Position numbers and translations under genes: made by a program. The notes beneath the pieces were generated by a model. That model ran no database searches and had not been told where the DNA came from. It saw only the letters and a program-made list of their open reading frames with translations. A stretch of 64,000 nucleotides of DNA from Ulva prolifera (taxonomy: Eukaryota; Chlorophyta; Ulvophyceae; Ulvales; Ulvaceae), in assembly GCA_023078555.1 (NCBI GenBank), contig CM041202.1, positions 2,600,022 to 2,664,021 of the forward strand. Reading direction: 5' to 3'. Shown one piece after another: positions 1 through 63,498 of the stretch; the stretch's first letter is position 1, and every line of letters starts with the position of its first letter.

Positions 1-673
1 AAGCTGTCACAGACGAAGACGCTAGCAACGCCACTCAGCAGCGGGCGGTGGTGGCTTCACAAAATCACACCAAAACCTACACCAAACTCTCCAATACCTG
101 GCCACCACAAACCCTAACGTAAAACGAGGCCACGAAAAGCATGTGGCACAGACGGCATTCCTCCACAGCAAGCGGAGATCTGCCGCTCCAAACATCCTAA
201 GAATCCTCCCATAATCCAGAACTCGTACACAGACTAGCCACCGCCCCGTGTTGCATGCGATGCCATGTGCGCTCTCCACATCAACGGACTGGGATCGAGA
301 GCACAACATACCGGCCCAGGCGAATCGGGCCGCCTAAATCGCGTGCCCGTTGCACAGAGGCGACATAGGAAAAGACGCCTGGGCCAGCCGAGAGAGGCGG
401 ACTGCCTCCGCATGTAGGTACACTCCCCGCCGTGCTACAGCACGCCCACCCGCGCACTCACTATGTGCGCATGCCATCATGCGTGCGGGCCATTTCAGTG
501 CCGCCGCGACACCCGCCACTGACGCACACTCGCACGTATATGTTGGAACTTTTACAACTTGCAGGTCGCCGCAGTGAGCTGCTGTCGAGGGAGCAACAGC
601 CCTGCACCTTCGCTGCCGGCGCCTGTACGGTCGCCCGCACCATCTCCCACAGCTCCACGCGCTGCACATGCGC
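1..673. other. No confident gene; possible extra exon of the next gene
   Basis: I see no recognisable protein here. On the minus strand, around 667-590, a stretch follows a good TGCAG acceptor and reads as an open, helical-looking exon (RVELWEMVRATVQ) before a GTGCAG donor. It could be a further exon of the gene at 3316-674 if that gene splices past its TAA at 676-674. The remainder is low-information sequence with overlapping open frames on both strands. Confidence 0.3.
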
Positions 674-3316: not shown

Positions 3317-3369
3317 CGCACAGCGTTGGAATCCATATCCGATGCCGCGGCGGGAGCAGTGGTGTGGCA

Positions 3370-3378
3370 CTTATATAC
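3370..3378 (-). promoter_or_regulatory. TATA box upstream of the Gln/Pro-rich gene
   Basis: Read on the minus strand this is GTATATAAG, a close match to the TATA consensus. It sits 54-62 bases upstream of the ATG at 3316, which would place a start site roughly 30 bases downstream and leave a short 5' leader. No other gene in the window has such a clear TATA element. Confidence 0.5.
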
Positions 3379-3523
3379 AATCATGCCACCCGTCCATATA
3401 CAGGCAAAAAGCTTGGACGTATCAGGTGAAGATACACATGTACTCTACACGGCGCTGCATGGAGGCGTCTCAGCCGATGCGGCATGCCGCGATGGAAACA
3501 AGTGTTGCAGGCGAAAGCAGTCG

Positions 3524-4184
3524 TCAGAAGAATTCACGCACCTCCGCTGTATGATAACTCGCTTGCAAGACGGATATTCCGAACACCACAATCACCAAAC
3601 ATGCGATTCCGGTAAGGCATTGCCTCCCGAACAAGATGAAACCACGCCGTGGACCTTCTGCATCGCATGTTATATCCCTCATGCGATATCGATGTGCATT
3701 GGGATGATAATTGCTGAAGGCAGATGTCGTGCTGCCTAACTCTGTCAAAGCAGCTTCGGTAACAAGCCTCCTGCGCTTGTTGTACTCATCGGTCGTCAGC
3801 GCTGCCACAAAGCCCTTGTGGTCATCAGATAGCAGCGATGGGCGAAACTCTAGTCCATTCTTCTTACTCATACTTGTAGAGGTTGAAGCGGAAGTGCCAG
3901 CGAAATCGGATGTGGCCAGATCGCGCTCACCCGGAATGGCAAGCTCAAGATGTGGCGAAGCTACAGGGTACCAAGGGCAATACACTGACAAATATGCTCG
4001 TACTTGCGATTCGTTGGCTGAAAACAGCGGAAGATCTCGACAAACGCTGCTGCGGTACCGGGAATCTGGGCTTCAGCCACCTGCCTGATGCCAAGATGTG
4101 AACAGCAACGTCTACGGTAGGACCCGGTGTAAGAACGCTGTTAATAATAGAGGCTCGCTGTCGCTTGTGTGTGGGATTGCACAT
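3524..4184 (-). CDS. Probable small protein with a C-terminal membrane anchor
   Basis: The family is not recognised. The 3' part (about 3953-3524) is an open frame that is polar and charged (KKNGLEFRPSLL, DEYNKRRRLVTEAAL) and ends in a single hydrophobic segment (LTGIACLVIVVFGISVL) about 15 residues from the stop. That is the layout of a tail-anchored or single-pass protein. A second open stretch starting at the ATG at 4184 reads MCNPTHKRQRASIIN and is in another frame, so an intron must join them. A GTACGAG donor and a CCCTGTAG acceptor (about 43 bases apart) would keep frame, but this intron is shorter than others here. The join and the start are uncertain; the C-terminal exon is the firmer part. 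It is divergent from no neighbour and lies about 150 bases upstream of the TATA box of the next gene. Confidence 0.42.
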
Positions 4185-5943
4185 GCTCTAGCTTTGCACA
4201 CTTTCGTGTTGTTGCATGCACACGACAAACGTCACGACATAAAGGGACGGACGACGTCGGACCAATTAAATGGCGCATGCCACGCGCTTGCATTTTACGT
4301 GTAAGCAGTGCTTGCAAACCTCACCAACGATGACTGAAGCCTTCATGAGGACATCAGTGAGCAAGTGAGAACACTCTCTGGACTCAGGACGGCTGTACGT
4401 GCGCCGTGTAAGGCTACCAGGGCCTAGCTATTTCCAGAATATTGGCTTCTCGTACAGCGCCCTGGATTCATCATGTCTTGACTTGGAGGTTGTACCATTG
4501 ATAATTTCTTCAAAGAACATGATTTTGAAGACCGTGATGCTTCCGGGAGCATTCAAGGCTGCAGGTGGTTCCCCCCCCCTTCTTTAATTCGCATCCTCTG
4601 CATGCACTGGCTGTCACTTTGATCCAGAATTGCACAGCTCGATCACAATTTTGCTGCATATTTTTGGTCCCTTTCAGTGTGCTAAGCTTGCTCCTATGTG
4701 AGGTCTTCAATAGCTGGAGTGCGCTGGGACTTTATTTTTCTGTCTGTGCTCAAGTACCTGCGTCGTCAGATTCCAGGAACTTCGAAAACGGCAGACGCAG
4801 GTGAATGCGAAGCATGGCATGTGCATAAAAGACGCCGTGCCTGATTTTCTGAAGACATCTCTCTATAGGAGGGTGTCAGGATACTGAAACACCGCATGAT
4901 ATAAGATAAGCTTTCAAATTTCCAAAATTGAAGTGACCCGCTGCAACATTTGGACTGAGCGGATCTGTGGTCGTTATTGGATGTATACCAGAATTTTCGA
5001 TGTCGGAAAGTGGTACCGAATCCTATGTTCATGGTGTGGCCATCCAGTTCATGAACAGGGCAATCTTCTGAACATGCCTGCAATTACCGTATCAGTGCAG
5101 CATCAGACATCATCAGCTGCCTGTTCCAACAGGAGCATTGCAACAATTGAAAAAGACACACGAATGCTCGGTGCAAGTTCACTCACACCTCTTGCATGAC
5201 TGCGCCTGGAGTACACTTGTACCACTGATGCTCCTGCTGTAGAAAGGTCAGACACTCATTGCTGCAGGCAACAAGCTAGACACCTTGTAATCCAATAATG
5301 TGAGACAATATGTTTGATTAGCATACCCGTAAGTGTATGTACAGCTGATTGAAACATACATGCACGTCCAATCAAGTAGCACAAGAAGTACTCGGCTGCA
5401 AACACTACCGCAAAAGTATCTACGGAACCACGGCCCAAGTAAATGCATTCTAAAGAGACAATTTTGACAGCAGGAGTAGTAGTGGCATGGGCATGCGATC
5501 ATCCCTTCATGAACTTGTTCAATGCTCACACCTGGATCAACGATCGAGTGGATACAGGTGTGGCAGGCACTTTGATCTGAAAGCCCAAAGGACAGCTGCC
5601 AACGAGAGTAGTCTGTAGCTGGCCCAGCTGGGCCCGGCACTCGGGGCTGCGCATTTTGGGGCTGACATACTGCCTGTGTTTGGCATGACACGCACCCGAT
5701 CTAGATGAAACTGTACTCGTAACAGGCAGTGCACATTTAGAGCCTCACTTGTGATCACAATTGAGCATGAGCTCCCACTCTATACTCATGTTTTGTACAT
5801 ATGTTTTAATATCTTATTTCTTGGGAATAGTCAGCATCAGCAAAGTTGCTAGAGCAGATGTGGAGGCAATGTACAAAAAACTACCACATGGTTTACAAGT
5901 ATATATACAATGATTGAGATCAGAGTGTCATCGCATATGCAAA
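4185..5943. other. Intergenic region without a recognisable gene
   Basis: Moderately AT-rich sequence with only short overlapping open frames and no family I recognise. A run of nine C at 4571-4579 and some AT-rich stretches toward the tRNA gene are the only visible features. The end of this region is the 5' flank of the tRNA gene. Confidence 0.5.
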
Positions 5944-6017
5944 GCACGTATAGCTCAGTTGGTTAGAGCGCAAGACTGTTAATCTTGAGGTCGAGGGTTC
6001 GACCCCCTCTATGTGCG
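5944..6017 (+). tRNA. tRNA-Asn (anticodon GTT)
   Basis: All four arms can be paired by eye. The acceptor stem is GCACGTA with TATGTGC (one G-T pair) and the discriminator base is G. The D arm is GCTC/GAGC with loop AGTTGGTTA. The anticodon stem is CAAGA/TCTTG with loop CTGTTAA, giving anticodon GTT for asparagine. The T arm is GAGGG/CCCTC with loop TTCGACC. The length is 74 nt and there is no intron. No CCA is encoded, as expected for a nuclear tRNA gene. A TTTT at 6021-6024 directly after the gene is a good RNA polymerase III terminator. Confidence 0.96.
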
Positions 6018-6020
6018 ACC

Positions 6021-6024
6021 TTTT
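6021..6024 (+). terminator. RNA polymerase III terminator of tRNA-Asn
   Basis: Four T on the coding strand, three bases after the discriminator base, is the normal Pol III stop signal. Confidence 0.7.
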
Positions 6025-6622
6025 GATTCACATCTTCTCTGCTAGTAACCTTTACCCGATGCCGATACCGGCCTGCTTTGAATGTTCAAGGCTTGTTAGG
6101 TCTCAATCTCAATCAAGAGATGGGTCTGTCGTCACCAGTCAAGATTTCCGAACGGTTTCCTGTGGCCAGAATTTGCAACGAGCGACATAGAAGCAGAAAC
6201 AACAAACCTCAAGCGATTCCACGTGTGCATGCAAGCTACCCAAACAACGGTCAATGGCATGATCTATGTATGTTCAAAGACGCAAATGCGTGGACACATT
6301 CAAACCTAGCAAATCAGGTGTCTGAGTTGTGGAAGCCCAGATGCCATGAATATATGAAGTCTTCACATCAAGATAACTGCTCTGTCTGAGCACCACAGCC
6401 TTTGTGATTTGCCTTTGTATGTAATTACAAAGGACAAAGGCCAGGCATAAAGCCGGTTATCGGAAGCCACTCACAAACCCACTCACTTTTTCATGGCACT
6501 AGGCCAGGCACGAGCGCGTACCACAGCCCTGCCGGTGATTTCAGCCAAAGATTGAAGCCCCGCACGGAGCACAACAGCATTCCCTTTGCACAACGCCACA
6601 CTCAATCGGCGCAGAGCATTCA
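6025..6622. other. Intergenic; nothing recognised
   Basis: Short open frames only. No repeat, RNA or protein family is evident. Confidence 0.4.
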
Positions 6623-7186
6623 TCACAAACAAACCGCGGTACATACACCACACCGAGACGCAACCTCCGCCAGCCGATTCAAGTGATCCATAGCAGGCTG
6701 TCCCAAGCGACCATGCGTCTCATGTGACAACGGCACAAAGCTATATGCATCAGGGTCGTACAGACGATAAGCACTGCGTTTCTGCACGTCCCGCGTCACC
6801 GAAGCACACCCGTCCTCCCGGGCCGCCCGGCCGCAATAGGTGTCAGCCCAGGGGTGCACAATCGACACATCCCCTATGCACAAGGGGTCACCTGGCGGCA
6901 TAAACATGATGTCCCCCAGCTTGTCTTGGGCCACCGCCCTGAGCACCCTCTCCAGCCCCTCCGCCTGCGCGGCAGCGGCCTGCTCCCCAGGTCCCGCCGC
7001 ATCCTGGCTACTTTGCACCGTCGCCGCCGCCAGCGCCGCAGCCTGCGCAGCATCCGGCGCGGGTCGCCCCACATGGGCGCTATGTCCAACGTCGGCATTG
7101 GCGGCCTGAGCAGTCATCGGCGCCGGCGGCCACCTTTGTATGTATGCATGACTCCTGCAGGGAGCATTTGATGCTGTTGTATGCAT
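6623..7186 (-). CDS. Retroelement-type endonuclease-like C-terminal fragment
   Basis: An ATG-initiated frame of 187 residues. The first half is Ala-rich and helical. The second half (about residues 100-178) has GDVSIVHPWADTY, then DVQKRSAY, then YSFVPLSHETHGRLGQPA. From memory, this D...K...F-V-P...E-T-x-G-R-L-G order is common at the C-terminus of reverse-transcriptase ORFs in algal and other protist genomes, where it resembles a PD-(D/E)XK-like nuclease fold. No reverse transcriptase domain is visible next to it, so this is either a 5'-truncated insertion or a host gene captured from one. The frame is intact, with no internal stops. The assignment rests on motif memory and could be wrong in detail. 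Confidence 0.5.
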   Translation of the reverse strand: MHTTASNAPCRSHAYIQRWPPAPMTAQAANADVGHSAHVGRPAPDAAQAAALAAATVQSSQDAAGPGEQAAAAQAEGLERVLRAVAQDKLGDIMFMPPGDPLCIGDVSIVHPWADTYCGRAAREDGCASVTRDVQKRSAYRLYDPDAYSFVPLSHETHGRLGQPAMDHLNRLAEVASRCGVCTAVCL

Positions 7187-10100
7187 GTGGATGTGTTATC
7201 AGTTCATTCATTCAGGAGCGGGACCTGTGTAATGCCAGTAAGCCCGACCGGAATACATTGTACATCCCAGTGCCACCTCTTGCTGTATGTGTTTGCAGTT
7301 GAAGCCAGAAGATTGTTGCAAGTATGCATGCCTGCGCCGTGGCTTCTCAAACGGTGTTTGATTCGATGCCATGCTCCGTTGGGGCGCAGAGCTATTGATC
7401 CAATAAGGGCAGGATAATCGAAACAGAACTTGTTGTGATGAGCATCTGGGCTGGATAATCGAAACAGAACTTGTTGCAATGAGCGTCTGGGCAGGATAAT
7501 CGAAACAGAACTTGTTGTAATGAGCGTCTAAGATCGCATTCTCTGTGCCAGCTTCTGATGTACGAAGCCTGACTGCTTTGGTAGCACCAACACGGGCAAC
7601 GCCAAGACTGGGTATTTGCCTTCTTCGAGCCTCACGGTGATTTGCAGTGTGATGATGATGAGTCTATGGCATGATGCTGTGCCAATTAGATCCATTACAT
7701 TGGTCTGCACAGCGTCGGTCCAAGTCTTGTAATTTGGTTTTTTGAAACCCAGAGAAGCTGCTGTTTTGTGGGGATTTGTGTATTGCCACTGGATTGCCAT
7801 ATTCCGTTGACATCAAAAGCTTTTTGTTCCTTCCATTCCTGGTGTACAGAATGGTGTCATCAGATCGCAGTGACCGCTGGTGTTTGTGAAGCGTGTACTT
7901 GTAATGCTGTGGCTCCTTCATACCATCATGCTTATCATGCATTCACACCTGCTTCCATCTTAGGCCTGGACCAGTTATTCTGTAGCACTCGGCAGTGACT
8001 GCATCCCTGTGTCTTGCATGAGGGTGCAGGCAGTAATAGCTGAGCTGTGCCCCTCAAACAGTGCAGGTCCGAGTTGACGGTGCGGTGCTTGTGGCATGCG
8101 AATTCTTGTACCCCATCAATTGCACAGAGTGTCAGATGAAAGTCTGGAGACGTGAATCCTGTGCTGCAATTGTCAACCACATTTACATGTTCACTTGATG
8201 TGTCGTGGTAGTCCATGGCCAAGAAGAAGCACCTTCACTGGACAAGCAGATATAGCGTTGACTCATGGATCACGAAACAGGCCTGATTACCAGGTTCTGG
8301 TGTTTATGTCGCAACACCTCTGTAGGGAGAAACAGTGTAGGGCGTTGAATGGGATGGAAAATTGTTACATCTGTGTGCAACTACTGGTGCACAGTTGTCA
8401 CGATCAACATCACAGCTATTCTGGTCAGGTACATACTGGCAGATCGTTAGAGCATGGTGAAGGGACGCTACGCGAGAACCTTTCTTCACATGCCCCATTG
8501 CCCTGGTGGATCGTCGCAACAAGATCAAGACATATTCCCAGGACAGACATGGGCCCCCACAAGAATAAAACTCCTATGTCGCCTGGAAATGACTGCAACT
8601 TCCTGCTGCTGGCATACATACAAGGACTAGGCATCGCATATCACTGATGACGTGACATCAGTACCGGCTGTGTCGACGGTGTGCGGAGAAAGCACAAAGA
8701 ATTCCAAACTGGCATATCATGCTTTGAAAAGATGTATTCTTTGCGCTGCCGCCCTGGCAAGACCGAAAGCCGGCTGTAATGGCAGCCGGAGCACCAGTGG
8801 AATGGTCAGGTTGCATCTGCTTGACCTGCTCAAATCAGTGCGTTGTGTATGTCCGCATATTCTGCCATCAGGATTCACCGATGGCTCCTCCTTCGCCTTT
8901 CTTTGGTAGTAAACTGCTGCCTGACGACGTGCTTCTCGGTGAATTGCTGCCCATCCCTTCTGGGTGGACGGAAGCTTGGGCTTGCAGACGCCCCTTTTAT
9001 GTGAGGTGTGTTTCCGTGTGGTTAGTTTGGCAGGTCTTTGAGCCTGGACCTCTGCGCAAGCAGGGCTCCAGGTGTGTGGATATAAGACGCATCAGTGCTG
9101 TTGGGATCTATGCACCAAAGTGCCAATGGAGATGCCACACAAGAACTTGCAGTGTGCACAAGCTGGTGTCATAAGGCGCCAGACAAGATCTGCTGCATCA
9201 GCAATACATGTGTAGTAGCTCTCCATGTACGAGATACCATACAAGGTAGCACGCACTTGTGGAAGGACCTTGGATTGGAGACTTCCCTGCGGACATGGCT
9301 GATCCAGTGATCATCTTTGACTCCTGCGACATCTACAAACCAGCCGACACGGTCACGCCAGGAAATTCATCCTGACGATGAGCGATGGCAGCTGACGCAG
9401 ATCTGGATTCGGACCAGAGAGTCTCCCGTAGTCAATCGGAACAGCGACGGCATGACCAATTACAGCTACGCAGGCTGGCTCCTGGTGATGCTCAGGTGAC
9501 CGCTTGCCAGAACTCGACTGCCAGGCCAAAGTGGATGCGCAGGAGACTGGGACCAGGGGCGCAGCGCGAGAACCTAACGAAGAGAAGAACACTTACTGAG
9601 GAGTCACTGGTCACATGCGTATACCGTTTGGCGATGGCGCTGGTGCGACGTCAAAGACAGCGAACGTGCATCATTGTTGTTGCACCACCGGCATGACTCT
9701 GTGACATGACACTGTAAGTCTCTAATACGTAGGCTACAGAGCTACAGCGGTGAATGCTGCGACGGTCAGTACGTGCAGCGAATACAGACTAGCTCTACAG
9801 CCGTCGCGGCAGCAGCCGGCACGGGACGATCGACGTCGAGTCCACATCTCAACGTGCAGTCGATTACTTGTAATAGTTACAAAAATGTGACTTTTCATTG
9901 GCACCCGTGGCTGAATATTGGAACAGCTGGGGTTGCGGATTGACTCGGCGCGAAGCAGCCGACAAATGCGGACAAGCCCACCAGGGAGCCAGCAGATGCT
10001 CACCGCTTTACGGCAACTCCAAAGTGCTTTCAGGTGCCTGCCTGCTTGAGCAGATGTGAAATGAAGGCAGCGCAGCACAACCGGCGTAAAGCTTCACTTG

Positions 10101-12571
10101 TGTAGTAGCACCAGTCTCAGACGCAAACTCTGAAGGTAAACGAATGTGGTTGTTTTAGTGCAGGGGCTTCGAGCGTGTGCGATCGGGTGTGCTCAATGCT
10201 CGGAGTATTTGAAGCGCGGAAGGCCAATCGCGAGTTCGAACCATGTGCAGCTCACTTAGGCGGCCGCAGCCGCGCATAGAGCATACCACAAGTACTCCGA
10301 TTGCCACGTCGACAGCAGAGTCAACAAGGCACTGTCGATAAACGACATCAAGTCACGTTTTCACAAGCCATGTTTTTCCTCGAGCGGAATCCAAGCCTGG
10401 AAAGGACTCGAAGTAACGTAACCGAGAAAGTATGCGGATGCCGATACATCGCGATGGTTGGTGGCAAAGTGGATGCGCAGTGCATTGCGCACGTGAATGC
10501 ATGCATGGTTGAGCCTCGATCGGCGATCAGCTGCGCTTGGCCAAGCTTGGCCATATGTTAGCTGCATGTGTATGCATATCATCAGCACTGCCACTCTCCA
10601 GGCACCTGCTTGACGTGCCAGCATATGCATGCGACAGTAGCTCTCTCGTGGCAACACCTAGCTGCATGCATGGCAGTGCCGCTGTCTCCGTAGCACACAT
10701 CTTCGCTGCACGCTGAAATTTACGAACAAATTGCCCATGATCATGTACACTTCGGTCTGCTAGTTGATGACCCGCATCTTCTCTGTATGCAGCAATCCTG
10801 CAGCGGCTCGTCTAAGCCTGGCAATGTTTGTGATGGGAGGTGCCCTGCGCCACGTATGTGCATAGCCAGAACACCAGCACAAGCGTGAGCATGCGCTTGA
10901 TGACGCCACAACGCGGCGTCGCTGACGCATGGCCCTGCACATGCCAGGACAACGCGTTGCACCGCCTTGTACTGGCATTATGATATGCTGCCCAGGATAC
11001 GGCCACGCACCCTGAACCCAAACCTGCCAGGTGAAATGTAGCCAGCGAACAGCATCAGAAAGCTGCGGCTTGTAAGCGCATGCTTGAGAGAAGCTCAAGG
11101 AGCAGTTGAATTCTGCTGTACATGTGCACATGCGCGGGCCTGCAGCTGGGGACGTACACGTTGGCACGGCATCGCGGTGATGCACTGCTGGGCCGGGGAA
11201 GCTTTAAACAGAGCCTCTTGCCGACAGAATCCCCAGCTTCGATTGCAGTGCTCAATCAGCATCGCATGCACGTCGCGATGTGCATGGAATGCTGTACTGT
11301 AGGCACTCGCGAAGGTCAACAAGCAACAGCGCTCTCAACGGGCTTGCTGTGGACCTCAAGCCGACTACAACATGGCCTGTGCCTCCAGCAGGGTCCACCA
11401 ATCATGACACATGGATCGGCCTTGACCAGTGCCGATCGCGACGTCGATTTGCAAACAGCTGAAACGCCACAAGCTCTTCGTGCCCAGGGCATATGCTCAA
11501 CACGGCCAAGCTGAACTCCAGCGCAGTGCCACAACAAAGAATGTTCGTACATGGGCCAGGATGGTGGCTATGGCTGCGTCTTATGAATTGCTTCGACAAT
11601 GACAACGCCCAATTGTGTTCGAGCTTTGAACAGCGCGCGTTTACTCGCGCATCCAGGGCAAAGCCAGTAGCATCCAGCGTACCTCCTACTGTTAATTCGT
11701 TTGACAAATCGGGCCGTCATGGACGAGTTGAGGCACGTACCGTCGTGATCTAAATCAGGACATCCGTGGGCGCTTTGCCCCGTACTTCGAAGGGTTCGCT
11801 AGACAGAAGCAGTGGGCATTGGACCACTGGTAGTGTAGTCTCCGATATGTAAGCTAGTGTGCTGAGGGACTACGTTGAGCAGTTCGCAGGTCAACCAGGA
11901 CTGGCAGCGGCACGAGAAGAATCGCGCGTCCATGCATATCAGAGACTCCCACGCTGCACCTGCACATCTGCACGTCGCCTGAGCAGCCATGAAACGTTTG
12001 AAGACACAGCTACACTGATCATAGACAGCTTGGCTGGCACAAGAATATGCGTCCCTACTCAGAATCTGCGCGATCGGCAGACGTTATCAGCCTGACCACT
12101 TGAACCCGGGAGCTTTGGAGGCCGGTGGGATTGCGCAAAAGGAAATTAATTAGAAAATTCACGATTTATAACGCATGTGGGCCAATGTTAGTTAGAGGTG
12201 TACGCCAGATTTTCGTTCGCTGCGTTTCTGTTGCCTGAGCCTGCAGGAAACACTCTGAATGTCGGCTCCAATATTTCGGAAGTCTGACTGAGCTAATTGG
12301 ACAGGGCCGCCTCCGGGGTGTGGAAGAATGACGGACAATGCACCACTATCAAAACAAGATGCGAATGGCGCCGGTGATGCTGGCTTGAAAGGTTTCCCTC
12401 TGCCAATAACCCATGGGACTCAGTGGCCACTGAATTTGTAAGTATGAATTGTCGCATAACCTGGCGTTATTGCGGGGTTGCTGCGATCGGGGGGACTTTG
12501 AAGGTTGGTGTCGCAGGACACTTCCCGGCCTCACTGGCATGTGGCGCAAATGAAGGAACCGTAAGCCCGGC
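7187..12571. other. Long gene-poor region
   Basis: About 5.4 kb in which I recognise no protein. Open frames are short, overlap on both strands and lack compositional support. Minus-strand frames between 7528 and 8222 might be decayed retroelement gag/pol, given the endonuclease-like fragment just upstream, but no catalytic motif is visible. The 41-bp tandem repeat at 7412-7530 is the only clear structure. Confidence 0.4.
7412..7530 (+). repeat. 41-bp tandem repeat, three copies
   Basis: Copies begin at 7412, 7453 and 7494, each with GGATAATCGAAACAGAACTT followed by TGTTG and an ATGAGC(A/G)TCT block. Copies differ by only a few substitutions. The period is exactly 41 bases. Confidence 0.9.
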
Positions 12572-12760
12572 ATGAGTTGCATTCAAGCTGCTTATAATAC
12601 CATTGATTCTGTTCATGCAGCGAGAAATGGAGCTTCGTCACCCTCGGAGCCAATGTGGTCGTTCCCAGAGCATGCCATGCTCGCAGGAGCTGGCGCCGTG
12701 ACATTCAGTGATTTCCTTCCACAAGTGCCTCAGCCTTTCGCCTTGCAAGATGAGGTTGAC
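12572..12760 (+). CDS. Candidate first exon of the NB-ARC-TPR gene
   Basis: The NB-ARC gene has no in-frame ATG before its P-loop exon, so an upstream exon is required. This ATG-started frame of 63 codons ends at GAC before GTGCGCTCC, the favoured donor type here, in phase 0. That matches the phase 0 acceptor at 13573. The peptide (start MSCIQAAYNTIDS) matches no effector domain I know such as TIR, CARD or death domain. Other exons may lie in 12761-13572. This is an inference from phase and donor style only. Confidence 0.28.
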
Positions 12761-13572
12761 GTGCGCTCCACGATCTACCGAATGCCATGTTGGCCGGGAG
12801 TGCATTGCCCTGCCCGCTTCAGCTGCAGCACTGCCCAGGGGTGGATGCTGGTCCAGAAGCAGAATTGCGACAGAGAAGAACCGCTCTGCGAAATGTGATT
12901 CATTCGAGATTCGTAGTCCTGTCGCGGTCGCGGGTCGTCTCCGCCTTTGGACCTGTGAACAGTACTACTGGCTCCCTTCCAAGCTGTCTATTGTGTTAAC
13001 CTGCAAGAAGTAAAAGAATTGACACCGGCACCGATGGCCTTGATATAATCCTCATTGCTTTATGTGTGCGTCATCTGTATTGTCAGGTCGCTGGCTTTCG
13101 CATAGGATACCATACCTGATCGACACTCATGCACGTTATGCAGCAAGCAATGCTGACGCTTTTGCAGCAACTTCCACACACTATACGAAGAAAGGTTGCT
13201 GTCTCTGTTTGAGCCATGCATGTGTGCTTGCTCAAATAGCGCTATGTGCTCTCAGCTCGCCCTTTTGGCATCGCATCTGTGGATCGACTCGGCCCAGTCA
13301 ATCACTGCTTCACATTTGACATAGCCAGCCCCACTCCTACCACTCTGTACCTGCCATACTCTTCTGTCCCGGTGCCCGTGTCAGCTTTCTAGCCACTCCA
13401 GAGAGTGTCCCTTCACCCGGGGGGGCGTTTCTGTTTTGCTGAGGCCGCTAGCTCCGCCATCTCCCAGCACTCGCCACTGCAACCCATCACAGTGGATCCC
13501 CAGCCCACATGTGATAATTTTAGGGCGTTCCAAGAGACCGAAACACAGTCTGTCAGCCGACTGTGTGTGCAG

Positions 13573-14111
13573 GGAGCGAGGAGTGCCATCTTCACCGAGG
13601 CGTTTCTTGCGGCGGACTCGTCCGTCGGGCTGATCGTCGGACCCCAGGCATGTGGCAAGTCCGTCGTGGCGGCACAGCTCGCGAGGGACCCGCAGGTCCA
13701 GGTGTGCCTCCCCTGCCTCCCCCCAGGCCACATCCGGCCTGCATTCACCCGGAATCGCTCGCACAGGCCGAGGAGTATTCATACTGATACTCTTCGCCCC
13801 TTCGCCATGTGGGCAGCCGATGGGAGGCAATGCCGCAGAACTGTGGCACATTTCAAACCATCTATCCACTCTCTTTGCATGCCATGGCAGGTCTCATGAT
13901 CGATGACCCATGCTTGCCGCTCTTCAATCGGGGTCTAACGGACGCTTTGCGCGCTTGGTCAGAAGTGCCGGTAGTCTGGAGCAGTCATGGCCATGGCATG
14001 CTGTGCTGCCACATACCACATCATGCCTGTCACCACACACAGCATGAGTCATGTATTGATCATCTCCAGGCAATCCTGCATGCTCCTGATCACCGTCGGT
14101 GGCGTGTCGCG

Positions 14112-14146
<35 letters not shown>

Positions 14147-14812
14147 GCACAGGCTGGCCTTAGCGACCCTTTGCCGTTCTGCGGGGCTGTGCCCTAGCGG
14201 CTATTCCTGCTGACACTGCTCGCCACACAGATCAGGGGGCTGACTCTGGCCACAGCGGCTGCAGAGGAGGGGTGGGTGGGTAGCGAGACCTGCGGCGGGG
14301 CTGGCCCGCACAGCTCTTTTTAGACCAGCTGCCCGCCTGCTACCCTCATCGGCGCATGCATGCGGGCGGCGGGACCACAGCAGGCCTCCCACAGCATCGG
14401 CGGCAGTGGCACCCCCAGGCCACAGCAGGAGGCCATGGCCCCCGGCGGCGCTAGCGGCTCCGTGCCATGCCTGCTTTGGCAGCCAAGCGCATCCCGGCCG
14501 CTCCTGTGGAGACGCACTCAGACTCGCCTGTGTGGTGTGCATGGATAGCATGCATGCACGCGTGCGCCCGCACCGTGTCATGGTGAGCGTGGATCGCAGC
14601 AGCTGTGCAAGGCAGACCCGGGGCGCGGAGTGCAGGATCTGTATCCGGACGGCATCATGTGGGTGCACTGCGGCGCGGCCGCGACGGCGTGGGCCGTGCT
14701 GCGGCAGCTGTGGCAGATCGTGCGGCGTGTGCGGCTGAGCTCCGGCGCGCAGCCAGTACAATGGCTGAATGACCCTGCACAGTGCGCGCCCTTTTCCCCT
14801 GTAGCCGTGCTT

Positions 14813-14845
<33 letters not shown>

Positions 14846-17800
14846 ACCTGTTGCTGGCGCGCCATGTCTGCGCTGGTGAATGATTGACGAACTAACTCAG
14901 CCGCTGGGCAATCACCGACAACGAGTTCCGCAGATGCTGGACCCACTGTTTTGTGCATTGGTGCGTGTTCAAGCTCCCGCAGATTTGCTGTGGCCTCCAG
15001 TCCTCTGAGCCAGCGCCGGATGTGCAGACCTGTTCTGTGTTGTCGACAACGTTCGCAGGGATGCCGGTGCCAGATAATGCAAGCCCCTCGTTATGCGTCG
15101 ATACAGTTGCAGCGTGAGAGCCGCAGACCACATGCATGCATTGGAAAGGGTTCGGCGGATCACAGCTTCGTTGTGCGCCTCTGCACCAGCAACCTGCAGT
15201 GATTCGTGTTGTTTCAAGCCGCACGAGTACGGATGGCCCGCAATGACGATGTGGCCGCCCCGCACGGTGCGCTGTCCAAGCAGCCCTCCATTCAATCAGC
15301 CCCTGGACGCATGTGCGGCATGCGTGTGTCTGTGCGTGCAGCACGGAGGCGAGCCTGTCGTACGAGCTCGTGCGGCAGCTGGCGTGCAAGCGCACGCTGC
15401 TCGTGCTGGACGACGTGCGCGACGCGCGCGCCGTGCGCGCCTGCAACCCCCTCGGCCCGCACCTCCTCTGCACCACCTTCGAGGGCAGCATCGCGAAGCG
15501 GCTGCAGACGGCGGTGTCCTCCGTCGGCGTGCGCTCGTACGAGATGCGCGTGCTGTCGCTGGCCAACATGCGCATGCTCCTCAACGCCCACTTCTCCTTC
15601 CAGGTGCTCCCCCCCCAACCCCTGTCTATGCGGGCTCTGTGGTGAGTGCTACGCAGGGTAAGCGAGCGCGCTGAACTCTGCGCGGCGTTCTGCTCGAGTT
15701 CTGTGGCAGGCCGGCGCGGGCGCTTCTGCCTTTGCGTGCGGCCGTGCAACGGCCCGCGCCGCTGTCCAATCATGCCACCGGCGCAGTGGTTCTGTCCCGC
15801 TGCGTTCTGATGGCGGGATTCCCTATCACATCTTCCCACGTTCAGCCCTCCCCGTCACATCCCGGCGCCTGATGCCACTCGGCTGTGACTGTTGGCATGG
15901 CAGTTATGGACAGTATGCATGGCAGAGCACGAATATAGACTACAAAGCGTTGTCCATATACCCATGGAACGAAGGTGGTGGTGGCGGCGCAGGAGGTGGA
16001 TGCGGCACTGCTGGAGTCGCTGCTGGCGATGATTGGCCGCCTGCCGCTCGAGCTCGTGCTCGTGTCGTTCCTCTTCCAGGTCGTCAAGGCATACGTCGCG
16101 TTTGACAACAAGACGCTGCTCGGCGCCGTCATGAAGCGCCTGCATGCCTCGCACCGCACCCTCCAGGTGCGGCCCCCACACCACTTTGCGTTTCAAGGCT
16201 TTGTAGTGTGCTGGGGAGATCTGCCATGCAATGGTCCGAGCTCTTGCACTGTGTTCCCGCACATCACTGCCCGCTGCCCCGCGGACGCTCATCGGCCGAT
16301 GTAGCGGGGGCTGGAGTGATAAGCGATTATCGGAAGGCTGAATGAATTTCGCGATCGCTTAGCAAGCTATAAGATGTCGCGTGAATTAATTTTTTCCTCG
16401 CTTCGCTCGCCACAACAAGGGTGTCATAATTAGGTTTTATAGCTTAATTCGGACTTGAATTTCAATTTTATCGCTTATAAGCGATTTATCGATGAAATTA
16501 TAACCACTGGCGAGGGATATCGTCCGGAGACCCAGCATCGCGTTGCCACGCATGTAGCTGAATGCATCGTGGATGGCAGAGATGCAGTCATATCTAAGCT
16601 TTTTGGGCACCTGCCCGTGCCTCGCCGCCGCAGTGAGCGTTTTCCAGATCCTGGAAAACTGGAGTTTGCCGGACCCCCCCGCTTCCTCCCCTTGCCCGAC
16701 GTGTTGGTGTTCTGTCTGCCGTGCACGCGCTGTGGCGCCCGCCGTCGAGGAGTGTAGGTGGCCAGGGGCTGGGCCTGAGGCGTGTGGCGGTGCGTGCAGG
16801 GGCAGCTGCACAACGAGAACGGCGTGCAGCACCTGTCGCAGAGCCACCTGTACTGCTGGCGCACGCTCGCCGTCACGCTCGAGCTCTTCCCGTCCATGTA
16901 CCGCAAGTGCATGTTCCAGCTCGCACTCGTGCCGGCGGGCACGATGATGTCCCAGCAGCTCCTCACGGTGCGACCCCCCCCCTCCCCCCCCCCCCCTCCG
17001 GCTTTGCGCGCCCGTTTGGCGCTGCCGCAGCAGATGTGGTGCAGGGGGTGGCCGCTGCAGGGCAGCTCCTTGCAGCTGGATGCACCCTGAGATGCTGTTT
17101 ACAGTGTGCCACAGCTGTATTCTATACTCAGGCGCCTGCGCTACATGGGCGCATGCATGCGCCCCCACCTCTACACATGCGGCACGTGTCCCTTTTGCCG
17201 CGAGCGGGAGGAGCGCAGCCGATTGCCTTACGCGGTCTCCAGATACTGCAGATCTTCCTGGAGGTCCAGGCTGCCTGCCTTGCCGCCTCGTGAGCCCGGG
17301 AAGGCACCTGTCGCGGTGTCGTCAACAGGGCCAGCATGCATGCGGCCCATGCGTGTGACTGCTGCGGCGCCGTGCAGGAGCTCTGGGGCCTGGCGCCGTC
17401 GGACACGCTGAGTGTGATACAGATGTTTGCGTCGGTGTCGATGCTGGTGCCCGTGCCGTGCCCGCAGGGCGCGCGCTGGCACGTGGCAAACCTTGCACAG
17501 GTGCGCCCCTAAGCCAACTCTTCCCGTCCTTTCTCCTCTGCCTCCTGCATTGTGCCCCAATCTGATGTGAGATAAAGCCACCCCCTCATCATTCATGCTG
17601 GTGTGTTGCAATGTCAAATACCTCTCAGTAAGTATGCTGATTGGGTATCCCCGGCAATCAAACCTGGAACCCCATCGCCGGTGGACGTTTTTGGTGGATT
17701 TTCCCCCACCCAACTGCCCTGCCACTGCAGGACTACATGGTGTACTGGGCGAAGCTGTCGGGTAAGGGCGCCGACATCGGGCGGCTGCAGCGGTGGCTAC

Positions 17801-20800
17801 TCGGGGACCCCGCCCGCGCCGCCCGCATCTGCAACCCCTTCTGCGAGACCGACCACACGCTGCTGCTGCGCTCCCCCTCGGCCGCCGCCGAGGCGGTGCG
17901 GCTCACCACCTCCGCCTCCAACATCAACGTCGACACGACGTTCGCGGCCGCGGTGCGGCGCGTGCTCGCGGCGCCGGCGGCGGCCGCCGGCACGGCCGCG
18001 CGGCAGACCGCGGGCGTCGTGCTTGCGCTCTCGACCGCCGCGTTCGACCTCCGCATGTACGAGCAGGCGCTCACGCTGCTGCGCCGCGCGGCGGACGAGT
18101 TTGCGGCGGCGGGGCTGCCGGCCGACGGCGCGCGGCTGCTGCACAGCCAGCTGCGCTTCGCGCAGGCGCAGGCGCTGCTCGCACTCGGCCGGCCGGCCGA
18201 TGCGATGCGGGAGCTCGAGAGCGTGCTGAAGGACGCCCAGGTGTGCCTCCAGTGTCTGCAGGCGTCACCGATGCCCACCCGTGCCTCCATTCTGTCGCTT
18301 GGGGGAGAGTCCTGAGGAGGTCCCGGCATGCCTCCAGCCCCCTCTTGATTGCCCCTCCATGCACATGACGACGTCACATGGTCGTACGTCATTGCGCGTC
18401 GCCAGTCTATCTGCGTCGATGAGCGGCGCCGGCGAACGCTGTCGGAAGGGACGTGCGCCTGTTGCATTCACCACCTGCCCCCCTCACGCAGCCACACTGG
18501 AAGCACGGATGCGGGAGTCATCATCTGTCCTGCGTGCTGGTCACCAATGAGGCCAAGCGCGGCCACACCATCCTGCGCTCCAGGACTCTCAACGCATTGC
18601 GTGTTGTCTACACGGGGTAGTGTGCCAGTGATGCAGGACGGTTCTCGGCGGTTGTTCCCACTGCCTTGTAGCATGCCGTGGTGCTCTGTCATGCATTATG
18701 CCGTGGTGCTCTGTCATGCATTATGCCGTGGTGCTCTGCCTTGTAGCATGCCGTGGTGCTCTGTCATGCACTGCCCCGCTGGCAACGGCGTTCGTGACTG
18801 GTTCTTCGGTGCAGGACGGCCGGCAGTACGCGCCGTACGTGCAGCAGCAGCTGGTGGCGGCGCTGCAGGCGGGCGCGTACGCGACCGCCGACGCCGGCCT
18901 CGCCCTCTCCCTTGCCACCGTGCGCAGCCAGATGGCCCTCGAGCAGCACGGCCACGGCGTCCACCACGCCGCCGCCCTCGGCGACCTCGTCAACGCGCAG
19001 CTCTACAAGTGCGAGAAGCCCGCAGCCATCAAGCAGGTGCGCGGGTCCTGCGCGTGCTGCGCGTGCTGTGCGTGCTGTGCTGTGAGGACGGAATCGGAGA
19101 GGCAGGTAGCACCGCAGGAACAGCGAACGACACTCAAGAGCAGGGTCACGGTGTCAGCGGCACACACTCTCAGGAGCCGCAGCTAGCATTTCATTCATGT
19201 GCTGTGTGGTTGTGCTGGCTGGTCGGTCGCGCCTCCATGCACTGTGGGAACTGCCAAACACTGCAGTGGCCGGGACCATGCCACAGCCTGCAGGGCTCAC
19301 AAAAGAGGGTCTCAGCCACAGTGGTGCCTGCAGAGCTGCCTGCCTCTGTGAATCGTGTCCTTGTGCCGTAGCCACATTACCATCCACATGGCCACGTAGC
19401 CACCTACCTGCCCCTGCACCCTGTTGTGTGGTCCTGCCGGTGCCTAGCTTCCCAACCACATGATCCCTCTATCCTGACATCTCCCCTTGTGGGCATCCCT
19501 ACAACAGAACCCCTCATTGTGTGTCCTGTTTGCACTGAGAAGATAGAGAGGCAGATATCACTGTGCTGAGAGTGCAGGATATGATACTGAGTGTGCAGGA
19601 TGTGATACTGTATGGCCCGCAATGGAATGGCCAGTCCTGAAGTACAGTGTGCAAACGTGCATGCATTGCACATCGGAATTTCACACTGCTGGGGTGACTG
19701 CATTGCAGCCTGGGCTCTAGACCACCTGAGATTCCCCATGGGCCCCACTAAAGTGCATCCATGGCCTGTTACCTTCCAGCCATGAATTCCTGAGTCAGCT
19801 GCTGACTGGTGCACATGGTGAGAAGATAATGCAAGTGCCGGTCATCTGTGCACAGCAGATCATCTTTTTTCATCATATGGCACCTGCCTGCTGCCTCCTG
19901 CCTCCCAGTTGCGCAACAGCTGCAGCTGGCAAGAAAGCACAGGATGAAAACAGATGACCTGCTGTGCACACATGTTCTGGATTGTCATCTGTTGAACATC
20001 TGCACCAACCCCAGTCACCCATGTTCCCCCGTGGCTGTGCAGCACTACTAGATATGCTGTGTTACAAAGGAAAAAGCCGGAGGGGCCGGCAGCACCGCCA
20101 GGACCAAGAGGGAGAGCACGAGAAACGCAATGCGCACGTAGCAGGAGAGCAACAGCCAACACCAAGGCACAACAAGCACCCACACACCCCCACACTCCTA
20201 CACACTACCACACGAACCAACCCCTAGATATGCTGTGTCAGTCAGGCACATCGACCGCGATTCCCGCCCCCCATCACGGCTCTGATTCACCGTGATTTAC
20301 ATCCCAACTCTTCCCCTCCCAACCACCCTCCCCCCAGACACATGAACTGTCAAGGTGCCAAGTTCCAGAACGTGAAGCCTCGCGTGAGCGGGCAGTGCTC
20401 CGTCGACGCAGTCGTGAGGTGCCACTGCCTGCGCCGCTACCCGCCTCTCCGACTGTGTCTTGCAACACATCATCCCCCACCCCGCCGCCGCTGGGCCACT
20501 CGGACCCCCAGTGACCCCACCCCGCCAAAAACTCACCACAGTGTGGCTACTGAACTGTATGCATGTGCGCCACCTGTGCACATGCGGCGGGGCGTGCGCA
20601 GCGTGTGTCGGTCCTCAATCACGCGGCGGGTGCGCATGCAGACGATCAAGGTCGCGCGGCAGACGCTGCAGCAGTGCAGCCGCCACTTCACGCTGCTGCA
20701 CCTCAACCTCGAGCGCGTCGTCATCTCCTACTACCTCTACATCGGCCGCGTCTCGGACGTCGAGACCAAGATGTGCAAGCTCTACCTCCAGATCCAGCAG

Positions 20801-22502
20801 GTCCGCCCCGCCCCCTGCTCCCCCGGTGGGTGCGCGCGTCCCACCGCGTGACCACAGCGGCCGGCCAGCATGTGCCAGCCACCGTTGTACATCTCTCTTT
20901 GTTGCCATGGCCGTGAGCTTGTCTGAGCGGCGGGTGTATGGCTCGGCATTGCCCCACTGCCGCCGCCTTGCTCGTCGGCGTCGGCGCGCGAAGGTGGGTG
21001 CTCTGGGCCCGGGGGTGCTGGGGTGTGCTGTGCATGCTGCGCGTGCTGTGCAGGTGTACGACCCGCACCACGAGGTCGCGGCGCTGCTGATGAACGACAT
21101 CGCGCTGTGCCTCAACATCCAGGGCAACTTCGGGGACGCGCACGACATGCTCGTCGAGGCGCTGACACTCTTCCGGCGGCCGGGCGCGACGACGCTGACG
21201 CAGCAGGCGTGCGCGCTCGCGCACAACAACCTCGCGGTCTCGCTGGCAGCGCTCGGGCGGCCGCGCGACGCGCAGAGCCACATGCGCGCCGCGCTCAAGG
21301 GCATCCGCGCGATGAGCAGCCCCTTTGTGTCGCCGCAGCCGACGCTGTACCTGCAGGCCGCGCTCCTCATGCAGCTCAACGTGCGCGCCCCGTGACATTG
21401 CGGAGAGTGTGGCATCGGCCCCGTGAACGCCACAATGCATGCACACTGCCTGCCTGCGATGTGTCTGCCGCGGTTGTGGCGTTTTGCCTGTGCGGGCGCC
21501 GAGTCACTGTATATACTTGCACATGCGCCGCTTGCGCATACCGTTGCGGCGATGATGCGCTTCACGCCGCCTGTCAGCATGCGCCCCCAATCTGACTCCC
21601 CGCAATGCCCGCCCCAAAGCGCGTGGCGTCCCCTGACGGCCGTGCGCATGTGCAGGAGTTTGACGCCGCGAAGGAGCTGCTGCTGCAGACGGTGCTGCAG
21701 TACAGCACGGCGCGGACGCGGCGCGTGAGCGCAGCTGCCGCGGCGCTGGAGTCGCTCGCGGTGCTCTTCATCGCGCAGGGCGACGCCGCGAGCGCCTCGA
21801 ACTGCCTCGACCAGAGCCTCGCTGTCAGCTCGATCCTCGAGCAGGACCGCAGCATGCGGCAGCTCAACAGCGTCGAGGTCGCGAAGGTCTACTTCCTCAA
21901 GTCGCTGCTCTGCAAGCGCCTCGGGGAGGCCGAGACGGTGCGCTCGGCCCGCTCAAGTCGCTACTCCGTGCTGTGTGCTGCTGTGCTTTGTGGCGTGAGC
22001 CTGTGCTCCGCTGCCGGCTCCGCGGCAAGCTGATTGGAGGCATGTTGATGGATGGCTCCGTTGGACGGTTGCAGTACCATCACATGTTGCCATCGCAATG
22101 CTGCATTCATGGGACTGAGGGGGGACGGTTGGGGGTATTGGGCCGGATCGGGCGTTGTTCCGTGCTCAGCACCTTTGTCAGAGTCTGTGTTCGTAGCGGC
22201 CCTGCCACTGCTGAGTCGACCACCCCGCCGCCGTGCAGGCCGAGGAGTTTGATGCAAAGTTCCGCAAGATCCTCGCCGCGAATAAGTCGCACCCGTACCT
22301 GCTGTGGGCGGCGAGCGTTGATGAAGTCGTCGAGGCGTTTGACGCATGCATGGCACGGAAAGATGGGGCGAACACCGGCGCCGAGCCGCCGGCTCTGCTC
22401 GCGATGCTCGAACCGGCGGCAGCAGCCAGGGGGGCAACGGAGCACAAGGCGCGGCGTGTGCTGCGCTCGGATCCAGAGCTAGAGGCGATGCAGATTGTAT
22501 AG
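13573..22502 (+). CDS. NB-ARC / winged-helix / TPR STAND ATPase (NLR- or Apaf-1-like)
   Basis: A signal-transducing ATPase inferred to switch between ADP and ATP states and to oligomerise. Exons: 13573-13701, 14636-14726, 15059-15113, 15342-15603, 15975-16166, 16800-16967, 17378-17500, 17731-18240, 18815-19036, 20642-20800, 21054-21380, 21656-21937, 22239-22502. All joins keep frame and give about 927 residues without the N-terminus. Seen in order: Walker A GPQACGKS; YPDGIMWVHCG, the strand after the P-loop in NB-ARC; Walker B LLVLDDV; LLCTTFEG at the RNBS-B position; RLPLEL at the GLPL position; RKCMFQLALVP and LWGLAP, matching the winged-helix domain; RWHVANLAQD at the MHD position. From about residue 360 follow TPR-like helix pairs (DAHDMLVEALTLF, AHNNLAVSLAALGRPRDA, AVLFIAQGDAASASNCLDQSL). 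The TTR arginine is F and the MHD aspartate is V. The third exon and the start of exon 15975 are the weakest joins. Confidence 0.8.
14112..14144 (+). repeat. Poly-C tract, 33 C
   Basis: An uninterrupted run of C in the intron between the P-loop exon and the next NB-ARC exon. Confidence 0.9.
14815..14845 (+). repeat. Poly-C tract, 31 C
   Basis: A second uninterrupted C run in the following intron of the NB-ARC-TPR gene, in the same orientation. Confidence 0.9.
16310..16500. repeat. AT-rich insert with inverted GATAAGCGAT motifs in an intron
   Basis: This stretch is much more AT-rich than its GC-rich surroundings. It carries GATAAGCGATTATCG near its left end and GCTTATAAGCGATTTATCG near its right end, which share an inverted GCGAT/ATCGC core. 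It looks like a small inserted element such as a MITE. No target duplication is obvious. Confidence 0.4.
18673..18772 (+). repeat. 25-bp tandem repeat, four copies, in an intron
   Basis: The unit ATGCCGTGGTGCTCTG plus a variable CATGCATT-like tail starts at 18673, 18698, 18723 and 18748. Copies 1, 2 and 4 are nearly identical; copy 3 has a diverged tail. It lies in the intron before exon 18815-19036. Confidence 0.9.
19847..19972. repeat. Imperfect long inverted repeat in an intron
   Basis: TGTGCACAGCAGATCATC at 19847-19864 pairs imperfectly with GATGACCTGCTGTGCACA at 19953-19970, and the pairing extends inward through T-rich and A-rich arms. The short unrelated open frames on the two strands are near copies of each other because of this symmetry. 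It could be a hairpin-type MITE. Confidence 0.6.
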
Positions 22503-22595
22503 GACACAGCGCGCACGGCACACCCGAGCCCGTGTGTCTCATGGCTCCGCCACGGCTGCAGTTCGGCTGGTCGCGGCGGCGTGATGTGCATGCTG

Positions 22596-22628
<33 letters not shown>

Positions 22629-24391: not shown

Positions 24392-26595
24392 TCACAGGTC
24401 GGGCTCGTCGGGATCTGCTGTGCCGAGAACGACCTCTGGATGCTGCAGTGCCGCCGCTTCCGCTTCCGACGAAATCCGCATTGAAGCGATCTGTTCATGC
24501 ACAGGAACATGATTCCCGGGCTCGATGCCGTTCGGTCGCGGGGCAGGAGGGACAGGTGCGTCCGCGGCACCGACAACTGCTGGCGCTCCCATCGGCGGCG
24601 GCATTCCGACCCGGGCAGCGGGCGGAGCCATGCTGGTGAGCGTGCTCCCGACCGCGCTCCCGACCACGCTCCCAACCATGCTGAGAGCCGGTGCAGCGGG
24701 GGTAGCTGCAGCAGGGGCAGCAGGCGGGGCAGCGGCGCCGCCGGAGCTCCCGCCCCCGCCACCCCCGGTGGACGTCTGCGATAAACGCTCGTGCGTGTGT
24801 GCAGCCGTTGCGGCTGCGACGGCGGCGCCCATGCCCTCCTGACTCGCAGACGCCGACAGCCGGCGAGCGGCAAGCAGGGGGTCCATCACACGCCCGCCAA
24901 CCGGCGCCGCACCATCGCCGCCAGTCCCCAGCGACATCCGCGCCATGCCCGCCTCGTCCTCCACGCCCCCAAGCGTCAGCGCCGGCGCGGCCAGCACCGC
25001 TGGGTCCTGCGCCGCGGCGAGCAGGTTGTGAAGGCGCTCCATCATCTCCGGCGACGTGAAGGCGCGGCCGGCTTGTTTGCGGAGGACAGCAGCGTGGCGC
25101 GCGGCCGCCGCGGCACGAGCCCGCGCCGCCGCCGCGTCCTTCGCCTTGTCCTCCGCCTCTGCGGCCACGGCCTCGGCGAGCACGATGGCTTCGCTGATCG
25201 TGCGCTCGAGGCACAGGCTGCGCAGGTTGTCGTCTGGGATGAAGTGGCGGACGCTGTACTGCTGACGGCACAGCGGGCACTTGCTCGTGGCCTCCGCGTG
25301 CTGCTGCGCGTGCTTCTCATACTCAAGCAGGCAGAGCGGGTGAAAAGCGTGGCCGCAGCTGACGTACGCGACTCCGCGCGTCATCGCGTGCTCGCGGTAC
25401 CTGCACCACCAGCACCTCATGAACAACCATGTGCATATTGTATGTCCGTGCCTGGTGTGTGAATGTATCCTGTTCATCATCAGCAGCAGCATTTCAGTGT
25501 GCCGCTCAACCGGCGGCGTGAGATCCCAGACTCCGATCCACTGACAGCTAGTGACCACACGGTATTCACACGCTGCACAATCTCCTCACGGCTCGCAGTC
25601 GGACTCGACTCTCCACAACAGCGCTGCAGGCGAGCACTCGCTCTTACAGAAATACAGCAAAGAAGATTCTGGAAGCTGGATGCCACGCAGTGCAGCGCAC
25701 CGACACGTCTTGTAGAGGAATTGCAGCTGGCTCTCCAGGCATGCGCGCTGCGGCTGGGCCATGATGTCGTCCGCGATCGTGTCAGGGTGGCGGCCGTCGT
25801 CCAGCCGCACGACCTGCGCCTCCGGCGCGTCGCCGTCGCTGCCGTCCTCCAGCACCGCCGGCGTCGCCGGATCACAGGCGTCCACGAGCTGCTGCTGCAG
25901 GGCTGCTGCTGCCGCGGCGGCGGCGGCCGCAGACACCGGGGTGCCGGCGGCGCTGCCGCCCCCCCCACTGGCCACTGGCCAGTTGTCGCCGGTGACTTTC
26001 CCGCTGCTGGCCTTGATGCTGCCGGCTCCATCTATTGGTGCGACACACCCACCTTCATCTGCATGCCAGCCATCTGCCGTCACGGCGTGACCATGGCAGC
26101 CGTGAACGCCGTCACGGCACAGCTGCCTGGCAGCTCATAGGCGGCAACGCCTCGAAACCGAAGGTCGTTAGTGAAGCACTCGCAAAATGCGCCACTGATG
26201 CACACCACGCTCCAGGCAACCCCCGCAGCGTGCAGGCAGACGCCACTGCAGAGACGAGCTCCAACGCCACAACAGCCGGGTGCGCACAGAAACTTGCGCC
26301 ACTGCGGCAGATGCCGCCGCAGCAGCCGCAGCGGCACAGGCAGCCTCAGAGCGACAGTGTACGGTGTGCAGGCGTGCAGACAGAGGCGGGGAGCCGTACC
26401 ACCAGAGTGCTCAGACTCAGAGGTGCCACACGAGACGACGTCGTCGGCGGTGTCGCCCCCGGCGGCGACGGTGTCGTGCAGCCGGAAGTTGTGCAGGATC
26501 TCGCTGAAGCAGATCGCGCACTCATCTACAAAGCGCTTGCGGTGGCAGTCTAAGATGACCTTGGCCCACTCGGGGGTGAGGCCCGGGTTGGACAT
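24392..26595 (-). CDS. RING-type zinc finger protein, probable E3 ubiquitin ligase
   Basis: Probable ubiquitin ligase. Three exons: 26595-26403, 26073-25701, 25400-24392; phases 1 and 2 agree and give about 523 residues. Exon 1 starts MSNPGLTPEWAKVILDCHRK and carries the first ligand pair (DECAICFSEI). Exon 3 carries the rest: VSCGHAFHPLC (C-x-H-x2-H-x2-C) and CPLCRQQY, giving C3-H2-C3 (RING-H2) spacing. Between the second and third ligands lie about 170 residues, mostly exon 2, with poly-Ala, Asp-rich and QLVDACDPA stretches; in known RINGs this loop is usually below about 40. After the RING come a charged Ala-rich helix (EAVAAEAEDKAKDAAAARA) and a Pro/Gly/Ala-rich, probably disordered tail to a TGA. 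Donor GTGCGC or GTGTCG can both end exon 2. An isoform skipping exon 2 with another donor would restore a normal loop. Confidence 0.75.
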
Positions 26596-26856
26596 CGGGG
26601 ATGGCAGCCTGCACGAGGCAGCGGATGACTCTGCTACCACAACCTGTCATCCAATGCGCCATGACGCAGTCACTTCGGGCTGTTGCCTGTGATGCTAAGA
26701 GATGCGCTGATCTAGGGCCTGTAGATTGTATTGCCAGAGTTGCGCCGCGATAAATAATAATAACCGCGCCCACTGAATGGGAGCGGCTGAGGTGTGCAGC
26801 TAAATCGCCACGGGCCATCAGCGTGCACTTTCGTATCATGCCGGGAGCGGATTGCA

Positions 26857-58760: not shown

Positions 58761-63498
<4,738 letters not shown>

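Follow-up and report, generated by a model that had tools for sequence, protein, structure and literature searches.

A divergent, intron-rich NB-ARC-TPR gene predicted in the genome of Ulva prolifera

Proteins that combine an NB-ARC ATPase with TPR have been published for Ulva mutabilis, Klebsormidium, brown algae and Acanthamoeba, and TIR-NBARC-TPR proteins for land plants. In the passages cited, the U. mutabilis genome was reported to encode an NB-ARC/TPR protein, UM014_0006.1, beside an NBS-LRR gene (PMC8891106), Klebsormidium flaccidum was reported to carry NB-TPR genes of clade I that are without typical R-protein signatures, and Chromochloris to have NLR copies arranged like an operon (PMC7145615). 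NB-ARC-TPR genes were likewise described in brown algae (PMC11378527, PMC4053784), with one such gene in Acanthamoeba (PMC4053784). The land-plant TNP/XTNX proteins are TIR-NBARC-TPR proteins, most of whose genes are intronless (PMC9806590, PMC5662649); as described in the cited passages, none was found in the green algae of PMC5662649 or in the chlorophytes or two charophytes of PMC9806590. The passages of PMC11218826 that were searched mention neither TPR nor green algae.

The gene described here lies in a window of 64,000 nucleotides of U. prolifera DNA, and all coordinates are those of the window. The first-pass annotation had proposed an undescribed system, a claim that finds no support in view of these publications; judged from the predicted protein, the window gene is a divergent NB-ARC-TPR gene, ordinary in kind, of a class already reported in other algae. 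By description only, UM014_0006.1 has the same named architecture and also comes from a green alga (PMC8891106), and the NB-TPR proteins of K. flaccidum, a streptophyte alga, combine NB-ARC with TPR as here (PMC7145615). TNP/XTNX proteins have NB-ARC followed by TPR as well, but as described they carry a TIR domain and their genes are mostly intronless, whereas no TIR was found here and the gene has at least 11 introns. Tandem duplication and TPR exon shuffling are described for the brown-algal genes; here no second copy was found and the exons are unequal and unlike one another. The closest NB-ARC matches in the searched collections were bacterial NB-ARC-TPR and NB-ARC-WD40 proteins (up to 25-27% identity) which, unlike the window gene, have uninterrupted frames, often an N-terminal effector domain, and the sensor-1 Arg. 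Apaf-1 carries APAF1_C and WD40, neither of which was among the Pfam families of the joined protein. It shares the NB-ARC class and gave a weak PDB match, but the window protein has TPR and no N-terminal domain was found in it. Plant NLR (NBS-LRR) proteins have C-terminal LRR, whereas no LRR family was among the 15 Pfam families listed for the joined protein.

Twelve plus-strand exons (13573-22502) were joined in phase 0 into 901 residues ending at a stop codon, with no stop or frameshift within them (Table 1). The first-pass annotation had counted 13 exons in frame, with coordinates for only two of them; the in-frame joining was upheld and the count recovered was 12. Both its P-loop exon (13573-13701) and its Walker B exon (15342-15603) are in the chain, with an extra exon (14636-14728) between them; Walker B lies where it had been placed, but an acceptor at 15349 is preferred as the start of that exon. 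This acceptor was our choice, the TGCAG acceptor at 15342 being out of phase with exon 2. All 11 introns were read as phase 0, which for exon 3 depends on the 15349 acceptor. A TGCAG acceptor precedes 10 of the 12 exons (the exceptions being GGAG at exon 3 and GCGCAG at exon 4) and a GTGYG donor follows nine of 11 (the exceptions being GTGCTC after exon 3 and GTCCGC after exon 9). Where exon 2 ends and exon 3 starts is uncertain, as about eight more residues stand between the Trp of the exon 2 motif, which we take to be RNBS-A, and Walker B in two cyanobacterial relatives.

Table 1. Features of the predicted gene, in window coordinates
Feature	Positions	Strand	Content
Exon 1 (first of those found, not the gene's first)	13573..13701	+	P-loop GPQACGKS 13639-13662, aligned with 41 NB-ARC sequences
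Exon 2	14636..14728	+	RNBS-A-like LYPDGIMWV (first residue L follows D); 3' end uncertain
Exon 3	15349..15603	+	Walker B LLVLDDV 15397-15417; sensor-1 LLCTTFEG 15463-15486; 5' end 15342 or 15349
Exon 4	15993..16166	+	GLPL-like IGRLPLELV 16032-16058
Interspersed repeat, about 200 bp	16312..16511	.	Inside intron 4; 38.5% G+C
Exon 5	16800..16967	+	Winged-helix motif CMFQLALVPAG 16908-16940
Exon 6	17378..17500	+	Winged-helix end; MHD-position residues VAN 17483-17491
Exon 7	17731..18240	+	Helix after the MHD position (LAQ/DYMVYWAK across junction) and first TPR-like units
Exon 8	18815..19036	+	Repeat region
Exon 9	20642..20800	+	Repeat region
Exon 10	21054..21380	+	TPR units
Exon 11	21656..21937	+	TPR region
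Exon 12	22239..22502	+	C-terminus with stop codon

The exons share a coding style, with a G+C content of 0.70, 0.45 and 0.93 at codon positions 1, 2 and 3, respectively (0.74 to 1.00 at the third position in individual exons), compared to 0.61 in the introns, which are 230 to 1605 bases long, intron 8 being the longest. Splice-flanked open segments (TGCAG to GTG[CT]G, phase 0) were more frequent on the gene strand of 13301-22600 (18 of 44 TGCAG sites) than in four comparison sets: the other strand of the same interval (4 of 36), 1-13000 (+) (1 of 37), 23001-64000 (+) (9 of 152) and the whole minus strand of the window (29 of 225). Neither TGTAA nor AATAAA was seen within about 1 kb 3' of the stop codon. 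The coding chain, with its NB-ARC, winged-helix and TPR parts, is plausible.

The A+T-rich repeat in intron 4 has 37 further places in the genome, at 67-91% identity. A reading of that intron as a mobile element bounded by long inverted arms was rejected, since those found were of 10-13 nt only; the idea that the introns are mutual copies was also discarded, the one short match being of 42 bases between introns 9 and 8. Uninterrupted runs of 31-33 C were present in introns (14112-14144 and 14815-14845) and after the stop codon (22597-22628). The first-pass annotation had set the gene apart from housekeeping genes, which does not hold across the whole window: an exon on the minus strand (59886-60299) matches Cdc48/p97, and other coding-style segments in 58908-61308 (-) resembled the same protein by eye. 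Coding-style segments were also seen in 24929-26601 (-), the first of which (24929-25399) resembled a RING finger, none of its matches reaching the Pfam cut-off, and a segment at 55231-55488 (+) had an IQ calmodulin-binding motif above the cut-off.

Profile searches of the joined protein gave NB-ARC and TPR matches above the Pfam cut-offs. NB-ARC (PF00931) scored 34.3 bits against a cut-off of 23.5, over profile positions 20-147 of 248 (36.8 bits for the NB part by itself), and TPR_12 and TPR_2 scored 46.5 and 38.9 bits against cut-offs of 30.1 and 27, respectively. The order that had been claimed at first pass, with P-loop, Walker B, GLPL-like and winged-helix motifs followed by TPR, was borne out by profile, tblastn and alignment; with the 12 in-frame exons, that observation is confirmed as a whole, and of its interpretation the NB-ARC, winged helix and TPR remain. 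Sequence neighbours in the PDB were the kinesin light chain TPR (best E 2.6e-4) and, weakly, APAF1 (best E 0.0063). The FxSxx-COOH TPR protein model NF040586 gave 36.9 bits, over residues 612-839 only, against a curated cut-off of 300, and none of the PADLOC anti-phage defence families was matched at E ≤ 0.01. Exon 7 by itself matched TPR families, none above its Pfam cut-off, and its single-sequence structure model was all-helix at low confidence (mean pLDDT 52.5). The corresponding model of exon 10 (mean pLDDT 62.1) resembled TPR domains in Foldseek, with no match reaching E ≤ 0.001. Exons 7 and 10 were also the best-matching pair among the TPR exons (39% over 59 residues, E 2e-5). Exon shuffling in the brown-algal style was rejected, as only exon 7 (510 = 5 x 102) is a whole number of repeat units long.

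Among 72,556 plasmid records, five, all cyanobacterial, had proteins matching the NB-ARC part, the best in one piece over residues 21-304 (E 4e-5, 25% identity). Three of the plasmid proteins carried EAD4 (L018), WD40 (L019) or CHAT, APAF1_C and WD40 (L020); on the cyanobacterial plasmid of L019, CHAT, NB-ARC (WD40) and TIR genes adjoin one another (3252-8360). An earlier scan of bacterial and archaeal genome contigs with the window protein as sole query gave no relatives, and neither did phage records and viral contigs. When the query was an alignment of the window protein and these three cyanobacterial proteins, with E-values that refer to the candidate stretches only, 101 relatives were confirmed in bacterial and archaeal genomes and 80 were kept, the best with 27% identity over residues 21-317. 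The relatives' alignment spans exons 1 to 6, which supports those junctions. In 19 of the 80 loci that were scanned for domains (five proteins by their best 25 families), WD40 was found in at least seven, TPR families in at least five (E ≤ 1e-8) and TIR_2 in at least seven; in other bacterial relatives PNP, DUF4062, SMEK or cyclase domains precede NB-ARC. Identity to the window protein was 18-25% among the bacterial and archaeal rows of the alignment and 17-19% among the NB-ARC-LRR rows from the same genome, and its end branch in the tree was very long (3.11). Grouping it with the NB-ARC-LRR proteins of that genome was not rejected (p-AU 0.372), and a clade with four bacterial TPR proteins was rejected (p-AU 0.000881), this set having been named after the tree was seen and omitting row L085, which is nested in it. 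The origin of the window gene is thus not settled by the tree.

Switch residues were compared in 42 rows, comprising the window protein, eight of the genome's own NB-ARC-LRR proteins, the three plasmid proteins and 30 of the 80 bacterial and archaeal loci, hand-picked for spread. The P-loop (GPQACGKS) and Walker B (LLVLDDV) were kept. Sensor 1 was TTF in the window protein and T[TAS]R in all 41 other rows. The Arg is usual in the NB-ARC family and has a role in holding the resting ADP state; Pfam membership is independent of it. In the most likely register the MHD position reads VAN in the window protein, while the other rows with letters there had H in 38 of 40 and D in 33 of 40; an alternative register, seen in another alignment, puts the His of RWH opposite the His of the cyanobacterial row L018. 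An ADP-holding role has been described for the MHD motif, in the passages cited (PMC8813719). Since four of five bacterial TPR relatives are also without the D of MHD, its loss is not special.

Exon 1 has no in-frame ATG, and the gene start is therefore placed upstream of 13573. Coding-style scans upstream of exon 1 revealed no N-terminal effector domain: in 6000-13572 (+) just one segment bounded by splice sites or an ATG exceeded 9 bits in a matching codon style, and it overlaps exon 1, and 47 open segments in 9000-13700, judged by eye, gave nothing convincing, Pfam having been run on the exon 1 frame only. These scans leave room for short exons, exons of another codon style and exons further upstream. 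A segment at 704-973 (+; 38.8 bits) was set aside, because the minus strand scores higher there (44.0 bits, and 57.7 bits for 698-1009) and no Pfam family was matched. The genome had no match to TIR PF01582, in a search whose control was positive in one of 14 genomes and which did not extend to PF13676. No match to APAF1_C was obtained either, but with none of 14 controls positive that search was uninformative.

No second copy was found in the genome (88.9 million bases, 44 contigs) with exons 3-5 and 7-12 as protein queries, which at E ≤ 0.001 returned the gene's own exons only; exons 1, 2 and 6 were left out. An exon-wise search gave at least 33 NB-ARC places, all 33 over the cut-off. The window gene was absent from the 33, showing that the search can overlook intron-rich genes and that the number is a lower bound; some places with identical scores may represent a single sequence in several copies. 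Eleven are on C4 (7.32-7.53 Mb), 10 on C6 at 2.31-2.61 Mb with one elsewhere, and five on C1 at 4.68-4.88 Mb with one elsewhere. NB-ARC-LRR clusters also occur at C8 5.23-5.28 Mb, and most cluster genes are long unbroken frames. Unbroken frames of at least 588 residues were present at 28 of the 33 places. LRR-like repeats were seen by eye in eight places read as single frames, and Pfam, run on seven places, gave LRR families in six (L001, L003, L101, L102, L105 and L103, the last having its NB-ARC and its LRR in different frames); the frame scanned for the seventh, L104, differed from its NB-ARC-matching frame and gave no family. In contrast to the window gene, the clustered NB-ARC-LRR genes of this genome are mostly long unbroken frames. 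The survey of Ulva, in the passages cited, lists one NBS-LRR gene (PMC8891106), as against the clusters of NB-ARC-LRR genes here. In the same genome, antenna proteins had chlorophyll a/b proteins as best PDB matches; one from L012 scored much higher than the others against chain 9vfj_2, a score summed over two domains of 284 and 240 bits, and the type read from these matches is just chlorophyll a/b of the green lineage, which hosts with secondary green plastids would also fit.

The best explanation, in which our confidence is evenly balanced, is a nuclear NB-ARC-TPR gene of the STAND ATPase class whose product would be a nucleotide-dependent signalling scaffold, the TPR part sensing and a partner giving the output. 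The TPR array would bind a protein or peptide ligand, binding would alter the contact between TPR and NB-ARC, and the nucleotide-loaded NB-ARC would then oligomerise into a platform from which the signal may be handed to a partner protein. The protein probably binds nucleotide and is probably less tightly locked by it than its relatives; the change of the sensor-1 Arg to Phe, an MHD position that is most likely VAN and the failure to find an effector domain point to a looser nucleotide lock and a partner-passed signal. As only one copy was found and the exons are not duplicates of one another, the ligand may be fixed and the protein more of a regulator or helper than a diversifying receptor.

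A canonical immune receptor whose effector domain lies in unseen upstream exons, and which on release by its ligand leads to cell death or defence, would account for the missing start codon and would resemble the many bacterial relatives in which effector-type domains, such as the TIR_2 noted above, precede NB-ARC. This reading is unlikely, given the lack of a matching-codon-style stretch besides exon 1 in 6000-13572, the negative TIR PF01582 search with its one positive control, the failure to find a second copy and the changes at both the sensor-1 and MHD positions. The same changes, with the sensor-1 Arg and most likely the MHD His absent, and the very long branch would also fit a protein that no longer switches, in which the TPR scaffold works and the ATPase part is a relic; the intact P-loop and Walker B and the uniformly high third-position G+C of 12 exons without stop or frameshift argue against such decay, which we consider unlikely.

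As the joining was read from DNA alone, it is also conceivable that an NB-ARC gene and an adjacent TPR gene were wrongly joined, the length of intron 8 being in keeping with this. Exon 7, however, links the two parts, since it encodes TPR-like units as well as the helix that continues after the MHD position; in the alignment with relatives, the boundary between exons 6 and 7 lies within this helix. A false join is accordingly rated very improbable.

A more specific reading, in which this single-copy NB-ARC-TPR protein, lacking its own effector domain and changed at the residues that sense ADP, would act as a shared helper or scaffold for the genome's clustered NB-ARC-LRR receptors, we consider very improbable; if true, it would mean a green alga with a sensor-helper receptor network. 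If both changed positions prove to be conserved in orthologues, the protein would represent an NB-ARC switch without the usual ADP contacts. An intron-rich NB-ARC-TPR gene in a genome with at least 33 NB-ARC places offers a setting in which to ask how the NB-ARC classes divide their work.
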